Positions 60,779-64,000 of a DNA stretch of 64,000 nt are shown one piece after another. The DNA is taken from assembly GCF_003611465.1 (NCBI RefSeq), contig NZ_RAXV01000013.1, positions 1 through 64,000 of the forward strand. Reading direction: 5' to 3'. This DNA is from Acinetobacter tianfuensis (GTDB lineage: Bacteria; Pseudomonadota; Gammaproteobacteria; Pseudomonadales; Moraxellaceae). The notes under the pieces are model-generated. The model made no database searches. It was not told the origin of the DNA and saw nothing but the letters and a program-made list of their open reading frames with translations. Each line of letters starts with the position of its first letter. Positions within the stretch are counted from its first letter, which is position 1. Made by a program: the position numbers and the translations under genes.

Positions 60779-60810
60779 AAAAGCCGATCCAAATGTGATC
60801 GGCTTTTTTT
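60779..60810 (+). terminator. asd: terminator after asd
   Basis: AAAAGCCGATC-CAAATGT-GATCGGCTTTTTTT hairpin with T-run. Confidence 0.85.
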
Positions 60811-60905: not shown

Positions 60906-62378
60906 ATGACTGTCTATAACAAATTAAAAATTGCCATTTTAGCTATTCTTGCATCGCCGCATATTCATGCGATCACAATTGATCCTGTAAAAATTCAGTC
61001 AGCGCCAGGGGAACTGCTGTATGCCGAGATCGATTTTCGCAATTCGGATATCAATGCGCCTTTGCAAGCCAGCCTTGCAACAGCTGAAGATCTTATGCGG
61101 ATTGGCGCAGCACACCAGCCGCCTGGGCATTTAAATTTTTTCACACGCCGTGACAGTTCCGGCAACGGCGTCATTACCATTACCTCTTCACGCCCAATGA
61201 CAGATTCAGAACTGAATATCGTCCTGAAAATTACTGAAGGCAGCTCAGCACGCCTGCAGCATATTAAAACAGCAGTGAAACGCGCTGCGCCAAAAGTTCA
61301 AGCCAAAGCAAATAGCAATGAGCGTCCGCTGATGCCGACGATGGTCGTCAATGAAAAAGAGATCGCGCTCAATCTGCCTGTCAGCACACAATATGCTGTC
61401 ACTGCGCCAAAACCTGCCAGCGGCATCACGCCGTCTCAGATCAGCAGCAATATGCCTTTAAATATCAGCAACGGCGCGCCGCCTGCACTGACAGCGCCAA
61501 AAACCGCAGTCCATAGCGCAGCAGCGCCTCTTGCGGCAATGACAGCACCAGCTCAGCCGAAAGCTCAAATTACTGCGCAGCAAAAAATACCAGCGGCATC
61601 TGTGGCTGCTGCACCTCAAATGAGTACTGCAGTCCAGCCCCTAAAAGTTACACCAGCACAGCAAACTGCCGCTTCTGCTCACGCAAGCAATGCCGTGTCG
61701 CAAGATCCGCTGGTAAAAAAATATGCTGAAAAGATGGCGATGCAAAAGTCTCAATCAAAGGAAAATTCAGCAGCTGCACAAACACCAGCGCACAAACCAG
61801 CTTCTGCACATATAGCTTCAGCCCCTGCCGCAAACAAAACTGAATATGTCGTGCAGACCAATGAAACACTTTGGGGCATTGCTTCACGTATTGCAGCAGA
61901 TCAAAAACGCCCTATTGGCGATGTAATGAAACAAATTAAAGCCAGCAATGAGCATGCCTTCATTAATGGAAATTCCAACCGTTTACGCCGCGGCGCCGCA
62001 TTGAATTTAAATGGCGCGCAGGCACCCAAAACGCAAGCAAAAGTTAATTCAGCCGAACTGGCTAAAATTCCATCTTCACAATCAGGCAAAGCCAAATACC
62101 GCCTAAATGAAGCGGAGATGAGCCTCGTTTCTGAGAGTGAGCAAGATTCAGCCCGAACAAGTGCCAATAGAAACACAGAAAAAAACCAAACTTCGGATAA
62201 GTTGTCATTAAAAATTATGACATCTCGTGAAAAAACCGTTAAATTACAGAGAAACGTAACGCAGTTAGAATTGGCGCTAAATCAGAAGGATCAAAGAATT
62301 CAATTATTAAATGCACGCCTTGCAGAACTTGAAGCTAAGTTAAAAACACAGCGCGCAGCCAAGAAGCCAATACAGTAA
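60906..62378 (+). CDS. FimV-type periplasmic half: FimV N-terminal plus LysM
   Basis: 490 residues. A signal peptide (MTVYNKLKIAILAILASPHIHA) is followed by the FimV N-terminal beta domain, with IQSAPGELLYAEIDFRNSD and GVITITSSRPMTDSELNIVL. Then comes a long Ala/Pro/Gln-rich linker (about 120-310), a LysM domain near residues 311-365 (EYVVQTNETLWGIASRIAAD) that binds peptidoglycan, and a coiled coil near the C-terminus (435-480). In Pseudomonas FimV, one chain carries this region plus a transmembrane helix and a cytoplasmic TPR domain. Here it ends before the helix; the remainder follows as a separate gene. Confidence 0.75.
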   Translation: MTVYNKLKIAILAILASPHIHAITIDPVKIQSAPGELLYAEIDFRNSDINAPLQASLATAEDLMRIGAAHQPPGHLNFFTRRDSSGNGVITITSSRPMTDSELNIVLKITEGSSARLQHIKTAVKRAAPKVQAKANSNERPLMPTMVVNEKEIALNLPVSTQYAVTAPKPASGITPSQISSNMPLNISNGAPPALTAPKTAVHSAAAPLAAMTAPAQPKAQITAQQKIPAASVAAAPQMSTAVQPLKVTPAQQTAASAHASNAVSQDPLVKKYAEKMAMQKSQSKENSAAAQTPAHKPASAHIASAPAANKTEYVVQTNETLWGIASRIAADQKRPIGDVMKQIKASNEHAFINGNSNRLRRGAALNLNGAQAPKTQAKVNSAELAKIPSSQSGKAKYRLNEAEMSLVSESEQDSARTSANRNTEKNQTSDKLSLKIMTSREKTVKLQRNVTQLELALNQKDQRIQLLNARLAELEAKLKTQRAAKKPIQ

Positions 62379-62446
62379 AAATTGCAACATGAATTTAAAG
62401 TGGGTGGGCGCTCATAATCTGGGCTCTTTCCAAAAGGGGTAATAAC

Positions 62447-63691
62447 ATGCTGATTTATGTGATTCCATTAGTGATTTTTTTGATCGCTTTGGTATATTTC
62501 AAAAAACGCCAAGACGCACAAGAGTCAGATAAAGCGACAACGCAAAAAACCAAGGCAAAAAAAGCAAGCTCTTCTGCTCAAGTTGCCCCAAGCCGCACTC
62601 AAGTTTCTGAACCAGCAGTAAAGCCTAAAACAACACCGCTGACTGAAGACACTCGAAATAAAATTCAAAGCTTGATCAATGAGCGCAACTTCTTCTCTGC
62701 AGAAGCGCAAATTAACCAAGCATTAAAACGCGATAATACACAGCACGAACTTTATTTATATCTACTGGATATTCATATTCAGCAAAAAGATGAATTTGCA
62801 ATCAGCCAACTGCTGAACCATCTGCGCTCATTAGAGCTAGATGACATTCTTGCGCAGGCAGAAACCAAGAACCTGAATCATCAGCAAGCTCAAAACAAAT
62901 CATCTGACACTATCGCCTATACAGCACCTGCTGCTGAAGCGCCTGCTGCGCCAAAACCTCAGCAAAACACAGCTGATTTTGATGCGCTGATGGGCACTGC
63001 GCCAAAGGCAGAAGAAACATCCAAAGCAGATCTTGCTTTTGAAACAGCAAAAAAAGAGTCAGCTCCTGCTGTTGAGGAAATCAAGCCGCTGGATTTCAAC
63101 CTGTCTTTTGACAGCTTGACAGAAAAAGCGCCTGCTGCGCCTCAGCCTGCTGCGGAAGAAATCAAGCCTTTAGAGTTTGGCTCTGCTCCTGCAGTTGAAC
63201 CTGAACTGAAAGCTGAACCGGCGCCTGCTGCGCCGGCAGCTGAAGAAATTAAACCGCTGGATTTCTCTTTAGATTTTGCGCCTGCGCCAACTGAAGAAGC
63301 AAAACCTGCAGCAGAAACTGCCCCGCTGGATTTCTCATTTACGACTGAAGCGCCAGCTGAAAAGACGGCGGAAGACGCACCGGCAGCACTCAGCTTTGAC
63401 TTAAGCTCAATCGAGCCAGAACCTGCTGCACCGTCAGCTGGCGTAAACTTTGATATCAGCAACGTCAGCACACCAAACGCTGCTGCAGCGGATCAAACAG
63501 ACCCGCTCGCTCAATCATTCCCTGAACTGCTGCAAGTGAATGAAATCACGTTGAATCTTGAATTAGCAGCGCAATATATTCAATTAGGCGCTTTCGAGTC
63601 TGCGCGTGAACTGCTGGATGAAAAAGAAACGGAGTATTCAGCTGAACAATTGGATCAGGTAAAGCTGTTACGCAATCAAATCGCTTCTTAA
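62447..63691 (+). CDS. FimV-type membrane/cytoplasmic half: TM, TPR-like and C-terminal domain
   Basis: 414 residues. It starts with a transmembrane helix (LIYVIPLVIFLIALVYF), then a basic lysine-rich stretch, a helical repeat (about 65-145), an acidic Ala/Pro/Glu-rich linker with repeats of EEIKPLDF, and a C-terminal domain NLELAAQYIQLGAFESAREL, the conserved FimV C-terminus. AAAAGGGG lies upstream of the ATG, and 68 bases separate it from the LysM gene. Together they would reconstruct a FimV-like polar organiser for type IV pili. There is no sign of a frameshift. Confidence 0.75.
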   Translation: MLIYVIPLVIFLIALVYFKKRQDAQESDKATTQKTKAKKASSSAQVAPSRTQVSEPAVKPKTTPLTEDTRNKIQSLINERNFFSAEAQINQALKRDNTQHELYLYLLDIHIQQKDEFAISQLLNHLRSLELDDILAQAETKNLNHQQAQNKSSDTIAYTAPAAEAPAAPKPQQNTADFDALMGTAPKAEETSKADLAFETAKKESAPAVEEIKPLDFNLSFDSLTEKAPAAPQPAAEEIKPLEFGSAPAVEPELKAEPAPAAPAAEEIKPLDFSLDFAPAPTEEAKPAAETAPLDFSFTTEAPAEKTAEDAPAALSFDLSSIEPEPAAPSAGVNFDISNVSTPNAAAADQTDPLAQSFPELLQVNEITLNLELAAQYIQLGAFESARELLDEKETEYSAEQLDQVKLLRNQIAS

Positions 63692-63710
63692 GCCAATTAG
63701 ACTTACACTA

Positions 63711-63736
63711 AAGCAGTCTCCATGACTGCTTTTTTT
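63711..63736 (+). terminator. terminator after the fimV C-terminal gene
   Basis: AAAGCAGTC-TCCAT-GACTGCTTTTTTT hairpin with T-run, ending exactly at the asparaginase start codon. Confidence 0.8.
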
Positions 63737-64000
63737 ATGATGAAAAAAATAGCTTTAATTTATATGGGCGGAACGTTTGGCTGTATTGGTGAGCCGCTCA
63801 GCCCCATGCCTGCAGATGCCTTTATTCCGCAGCTCAAGCGCGTCCTGCCCGTACATTTAGAAATTGAATGCTTTGTTGCACCCGCCATATGTGACAGCAG
63901 CGCCTGTACTGCAGTTGAATGGCTGCAGCTGGTTCAGCAAATTCAAGTCTTGCAGCTGCAGCAGTTTCAGCATTTCGTCATTATTCATGGCACAGACACC
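63737..64000 (+). CDS. L-asparaginase-like protein, N-terminal part
   Basis: Runs off the window edge with 88 codons visible, starting MMKKIALIYMGGTFGCIGEP (or one codon later) and reaching FVIIHGTDT. The first motif GGTFGCIGEP and the second HGTDT are the two asparaginase signature regions with catalytic Thr residues. There is no signal peptide, so a cytoplasmic type I enzyme is likely; an amidase relative is possible. Its start sits directly behind the terminator of the previous gene, and an in-frame ATG at 63722 within that hairpin is unlikely. Confidence 0.8.
   Translation, partial: MMKKIALIYMGGTFGCIGEPLSPMPADAFIPQLKRVLPVHLEIECFVAPAICDSSACTAVEWLQLVQQIQVLQLQQFQHFVIIHGTDT

Follow-up and report, generated by a model that had tools for sequence, protein, structure and literature searches.

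Two adjoining genes carry the domains of FimV

FimV of Pseudomonas aeruginosa, of the HubP/FimV polar landmark family, consists of a periplasmic LysM part, a membrane helix, an acidic cytoplasmic region and a C-terminal TPR, in that order (PMC12918733, PMC9596432), all in one polypeptide. The same domain order is present in a 64,000-nt stretch of Acinetobacter tianfuensis DNA (the window), but there it is spread over two genes, ORF1 and ORF2, and the linker between coiled coil and helix is gone. Such an arrangement prompts one to ask if the periplasmic half is free. The features of the locus are as follows.

60779..60807, + strand: terminator-like hairpin in the asd/ORF1 interval (terminator scan)
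60906..62378, + strand: ORF1, FimV periplasmic half, 490 aa (ORF list, domain matches, genus profile)
60906..60971, + strand: predicted signal peptide, residues 1-22, ending ...SPHIHA (by eye; model helix 3-15)
60981..61247, + strand: FimV_N Ig-like domain (PF25800 at residues 26-114; model beta strands within 37-120)
61845..62018, + strand: LysM / FimV core (LysM at residues 314-346 and TIGR03505 at 320-371, both below cut-off)
62223..62360, + strand: C-terminal helix read as coiled coil, residues 440-485 (46-residue helix in the model)
62379..62446, + strand: ORF1-ORF2 gap, 68 nt, without a + strand terminator-like site (terminator scan)
62432-62439, + strand: ribosome-binding-site-like AAAAGGGG, 7 nt 5' of the ORF2 ATG at 62447
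62447..63691, + strand: ORF2, FimV membrane and cytoplasmic half, 414 aa (ORF list, domain and fold matches, genus profile)
62447..62536, + strand: predicted N-terminal membrane helix, about residues 1-30, model helix 5-30 (model, hydrophobicity)
62645..62908, + strand: TPR-like helical domain, residues 67-154 (model pLDDT about 88-96 per block over 61-150)
63542..63685, + strand: FimV C-terminal (TPR3) domain, residues 366-413 (TIGR03504 below cut-off; 4mal_B)
63710..63732, + strand: terminator-like hairpin 3' of ORF2 (terminator scan)

Both genes, and the ribosome-binding-site-like sequence between them, were located in the sequence where the first-pass annotation had placed them; their frames differ in the window. 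They probably form one transcript, flanked by the two terminator-like hairpins, in a region where 11 terminator-like sites were counted against 6.2 in shuffles. The pair also fits the locus position of FimV/HubP, the asd to truA interval. In the two-gene Acinetobacter loci read, the order is asd, ORF1, ORF2, an asparaginase gene and truA. The asparaginase gene matches Pfam PF00710 in two loci (L164 4893-5876 and L168 2605-3570), and positions 63722-64000 of the window resemble it.

Domain content and predicted topology of the two halves

The domain content proposed at the first pass was borne out for both genes. For ORF1, reading by eye, domain matches and structure model give a predicted signal peptide, FimV_N, LysM and a helix read as a coiled coil, with LysM below its cut-off. 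FimV_N (PF25800) scores 37.6 bits and passes its cut-off of 27, FimV_core (TIGR03505) scores 40.5 bits (E 1.8e-10) and stays below 43.45, and LysM (E 0.019) also stays below cut-off. At E<=0.001, PF25800 and TIGR03505 each match 22/22 ORF1 members, the window member being below the cut-off of the latter. The ORF1 model has low overall confidence (pLDDT 58); in it, residues 313-367 form a strand-helix-helix-strand, LysM-like unit, and its top fold matches are Ig-like domains, which are weak (E about 2e-3). The C-terminal coiled coil is a strongly conserved block in an alignment of 22 ORF1s. No second hydrophobic segment besides the signal peptide was found in 79 ORF1 pieces from the best 80 of 106 loci.

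For ORF2, an N-terminal membrane helix, a TPR-like domain and the C-terminal FimV domain were likewise recognized, FimV_Cterm remaining below its cut-off. In the model (mean pLDDT 62), the membrane helix is followed by a TPR-like domain of high confidence and, at the C terminus, by a further helical domain. FimV_Cterm (TIGR03504) gives E 2e-4 and 21.3 bits against a cut-off of 30.65; at E<=0.001 it matches 19/24 ORF2 members, with the window member below cut-off. A sequence comparison with PDB 4mal (FimV) gives E 0.005, and among PDB folds TPR3 of P. aeruginosa FimV ranks first (4mal_B, Foldseek), but at E 0.15 (probability 1.00). Designed TPR chains are among the top fold matches of the TPR-like region, at E 0.16 and weaker. 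Taken alone, A. tianfuensis gives one strong domain call out of four, the other three being weak. In genera g8, g12 and g11, however, with one locus each, the first gene scores above the cut-off of TIGR03505 and the second above that of TIGR03504, and these stronger members support the FimV assignment of both halves. The possibility raised at the first pass that the two products belong to unrelated families did not hold in the genus.

By hydrophobicity and model, the single membrane helix of FimV/HubP is present and placed at the start of ORF2. Among the best 80 of 106 loci, the most hydrophobic N-terminal window starts within the first 15 residues in 80/80, mostly at residue 1; net charge before the helix is absent in 75/80, and the 15 residues after it are net positive in 73/80. 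This charge pattern fits an N-out/C-in orientation, which is also predicted for the window protein, with KKR at residues 19-21. Almost no ORF2 residues are predicted outside the membrane. With its helix at the N terminus and oriented N-out/C-in, ORF2 would therefore offer ORF1 almost nothing there.

The pair is kept across Acinetobacter

Profile searches of 175 Acinetobacter genomes, one per species, matched ORF1 in 166, ORF2 in 170 and both in 165; earlier single-sequence searches of 119 genus genomes had found ORF1 in 113 and ORF2 in 115. ORF2 occurs without ORF1 in five of the 175 (G250, G036, G068, G555 and G032), ORF1 without an ORF2 match in one (G584), and neither half was matched in four (G093, G101, G567 and G110, the last only 64% complete). 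A scan of named genomes covered the best 80 of 106 confirmed loci, 79 from Acinetobacter and one from a Moraxellaceae bacterium. Both genes are present in 78 of these best 80 loci and ORF2 only in two (A. baylyi and A. soli); a single polypeptide reaching from peptidoglycan to cytoplasm is absent in all 80. Of ORF1, locus L277 in this set of the best 80 of 106 covers just the end. Individual genomes show other states: in A. harbinensis, one of the 78 (L216 3598-4928; L130 is the same genome), ORF1 lies in two overlapping pieces of 352 and 91 aa, and in L126 (G035) and L125 (G103) both halves are eroded or shortened.

These data bear on two trivial explanations of the split. A sequencing error, strain mutation or pseudogene would be in keeping with the local decay seen in G035, where ORF1 has internal stops and falls into short pieces, and with the divided ORF1 of A. 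harbinensis. However, both halves are matched in 165/175 genomes, other genera share the arrangement, and gap lengths and frames vary in the 78 loci measured among the best 80 of 106, so that we regard this explanation as extremely improbable, refuted by genus-wide conservation. A programmed frameshift or readthrough that also yields a joined protein has in its favor that the frames agree in 29/78 pairs of the same set. The frames disagree in the other 49/78, with relative frames 0, 1 and 2 in 29, 33 and 16 pairs, and the gap ranges from 12 to 78 nt (median 66; 48-78 in 74/78 pairs, the four shorter gaps depending on an earlier called ORF2 start). In addition, a loose Shine-Dalgarno pattern, as a raw count, precedes 74/80 called ORF2 starts in the best 80 of 106 loci. 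Varied gaps and frames argue against a conserved recoding that joins ORF1 and ORF2, and we reject this explanation, too, as highly improbable. The first-pass view that FimV is genuinely divided at its membrane helix, with no frameshift involved, is supported: the division is kept across the genus and recurs in other genera, and the comparison within Acinetobacter did not show a continuous gene in which this site would be an error or a strain mutation.

One-piece and two-piece FimV among relatives

A FimV_N search of the family matched 175/199 genomes and 15/16 genera. In the loci read, FimV is in one piece in g2, g3, g4, g5, g6, g10, g13 and g14, and in two pieces in g1 (Acinetobacter), g7, g8, g9, g11 and g12. 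Within g9, four of six loci (L102-L105) are clearly two-piece, L106 has a short ORF1, and L107 is without ORF1 by BLAST. The two halves of g15 were found on different contigs. One-piece relatives occupy the same asd-fimV-truA locus, and in the outlying one-piece genera read, truA directly follows fimV. Genus g2 (L091-L094) has a short one-piece FimV of 534-552 aa and, in the truA-trpF interval, another FimV-like protein that has a helix of its own; L094 carries a further copy of 487 aa before truA.

Across the order, FimV_N matches occur in 273/293 genomes; twelve of the 293 are from Moraxellaceae. Among the matches listed, most frames measure 700-1175 aa and nine are shorter than 700 aa (189-690). 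FimV is in one piece in 19/19 loci read from other families, and no split was found in these 19, which comprise 6 loci from five families and 13 picked from 30 low-scoring genomes. Similar to the window pair, the one-piece FimVs read from these families occupy the asd to truA interval. At locus L309, which gave no BLAST match, this interval contains an ORF of 381 aa with an internal helix. Elsewhere in the order, two loci of one family, L294 (5888-7126) and L298 (1246-2661), encode, beside a one-piece FimV, an additional FimV-like protein in which no internal membrane helix is predicted, located between asd and an asd-like gene.

On an Asd+TruA tree, in which g9 is represented by TruA only and some others by Asd only, the two-piece genera fall in one crown group (bootstrap 89) that includes the one-piece g10. 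The latter is sister to Acinetobacter (97), inside g12 (98) and g8 (95). Counted by hand, the tree can be explained by two changes, one split and a re-fusion in g10; if fusion is disallowed, four independent splits are counted. The differing place of the cut in g8 and g12, as read from the sequences, suggests more than one split.

The cut site and a signal-peptide-like segment

In g1, g7, g9, g11 and g12, the coiled coil is directly followed by the end of ORF1. The ORF2 of g12 starts with a signal-peptide-like segment (...LLASPAVFA|ADD), followed by the helix. In g8, ORF1 extends into a tail that is hydrophobic, and ORF2, overlapping it by 4 nt, opens with the helix. Signal-like segments at the cut site were read by eye, and three one-piece genera (g5, g13 and g10) have such a segment, hydrophobic and containing AxA, at the position of the cut in other genera, between coiled coil and helix, as in ...KALATLACGVATQSFLSTEAKA|AD. 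Between g13 and five g5 loci (L063 and L112 being the same genome), 16-19 of the 22 segment positions are identical, making it the most conserved linker block; the preceding linker shares 4-8 of 17-19 and the helix 9-11 of 19. The g10 segment shares only 4 of 22 and is alike in kind, not in letters. No such segment was seen in the g3, g4, g6 and g14 sequences examined. The same kind of segment appears to serve as the signal peptide of the second gene in g12 and as the tail of the first gene in g8. To our reading, the conserved, apparently signal-peptide-like AxA segment exactly at the cut position in some one-piece relatives is new.

It is conceivable, although we consider it doubtful, that signal peptidase cuts one-piece FimV at this AxA and that a cut of the protein predates that of the gene. 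A precedent of a kind is fbcH of Bradyrhizobium, which encodes a cytochrome bc1 precursor with an internal signal peptide that is cut into two proteins. The candidate internal segment in the one-piece FimV of g5, g13 and g10 resembles that precursor. In FimV, however, the part before the segment is exported, so that the orientation differs, and cleavage is putative. A signal that follows an exported domain, in an unusual orientation, is a topological difficulty for a protein cut. An internal translation start before the signal-like segment of one-piece genes was sought as well and is not conserved. If the protein were indeed cut, gene fission would only have replaced an existing protein cut, and in this family FimV would have acted as two proteins well before two genes encoded it.

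Repeated loss of the periplasmic half

In the A. baylyi type strain (G250), asd is followed by 207 nt and then ORF2, and profile search and locus reading found no ORF1 anywhere in the genome. According to Ellison 2022 (PMC9596432), A. baylyi FimV (ACIAD0477) is truncated and its periplasmic part absent, the truncation possibly having influenced the evolution of FimV into a localization factor; the protein was recovered with FimL in a pull-down, and pili become dispersed when it is deleted. ACIAD0477 presumably corresponds to the A. baylyi ORF2, the sole ORF2 match in the genome of another strain. The idea that this study overlooked a neighboring ORF1 was rejected, because no ORF1 was found in the genome. 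ACIAD0477 resembles the window in having an ORF2 homologue behind asd and differs from it in having no ORF1. ORF1 is likewise absent from A. soli, the sister of A. baylyi, and the pair is complete in the species next to them on the tree, A. ursingii for example. Since its relatives are two-gene, the missing periplasmic part of A. baylyi reflects a loss after the split, and the split is older than that loss. The A. baylyi FimV published as truncated is the remnant of a pair, which is new, as is the presence of ORF1 next door in the A. baumannii genome examined (L238), where a 493-aa ORF1 lies 48 nt upstream of ORF2. For A. baumannii, PMC12918733 reports a FimV without periplasmic domain and cites the A. 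baylyi study.

Altogether, loss of ORF1 alone is seen at four places in the genus tree. One holds A. baylyi and A. soli; the others are G068, G555, whose assembly is fragmented and contaminated to 7%, and G032. The G032 genome has an ORF2 profile match (E 1.5e-5, position not given) and, behind asd, a 261-aa ORF with an N-terminal helix that lacks an NCBIfam match and by eye is a diverged ORF2. Two g9 genomes also keep ORF2, with neither a FimV_N match nor a long ORF in front of it. This repeated loss of ORF1 with ORF2 retained indicates that the halves need not bind each other. Conversely, among 20 g11 genomes tested, both halves are present in 9 and neither in 11; joint losses, in g11 and in 4/175 Acinetobacter genomes, indicate that the halves share some function. 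ORF2 can thus stand alone despite some function shared with ORF1. In L165 (G093) and L166 (G101), where both halves are gone, an asparaginase-like gene directly follows asd.

Separable halves or one bridge in two pieces

We consider it likely that fission divided FimV into two separable modules, one free in the periplasm and binding the wall, the other anchored in the membrane and lying in the cytoplasm. An old fission, fixed since, would have divided the fimV gene just before the membrane helix. ORF1 would be exported by its signal peptide, stay in the periplasm, hold peptidoglycan by LysM and present its coiled coil; ORF2 would enter the membrane by its N-terminal helix, the N-end facing outward; its TPR-like and FimV C-terminal domains would lie in the cytoplasm, and there ORF2 would recruit Pil-Chp proteins and position type IV pilus machines. 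The A. baylyi case points to a cytoplasmic half that works without the periplasmic one, and any contact between the two would then be mediated by membrane, wall or pilus machine. Judged from sequence, the periplasmic half is most likely free: ORF1 has no extra predicted membrane segment, ORF2 is predicted to extend hardly at all outside the membrane, and ORF1 has been lost alone repeatedly.

Alternatively, the gene changed and the complex did not: ORF1 would dock either onto the helix of ORF2 or onto a partner common to both, for example the PilMNOPQ machine, and the two proteins would still form one bridge. We judge this rather unlikely, although several observations speak for it: the two genes adjoin in 78/80 of the best 80 of 106 loci, 11/20 g11 genomes tested lack both halves together, and g10, nested in the two-gene clade, has a one-piece gene. 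The very conserved coiled coil of ORF1 also favors it, counting against separable modules and suggesting a partner. Against a continued bridge stand the near absence of predicted periplasmic residues in ORF2 and the loss of ORF1 alone in several lineages. Our literature search found no expression, localization or interaction data for ORF1, and no published description of a FimV split in the sources it reached, some seen in part and most subscription journals lying outside its coverage. On balance, separable halves remain our preferred reading.

Implications for FimV biology

Descriptions of FimV present one bridge that reaches from the cell wall into the cytoplasm, and here a family is found in which it naturally exists as two proteins. 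The repeated loss of the wall-binding half is a natural experiment that points to the half needed for pilus placement. The published view of Acinetobacter FimV as a protein without periplasmic domain is refined: it is true of A. baylyi and A. soli, but 165/175 genus genomes match both halves. Deletion of fimV in a two-gene species may have removed only one half. In A. baumannii, where PMC8811193 reports unchanged transformation after fimV deletion, the deletion may concern either half.
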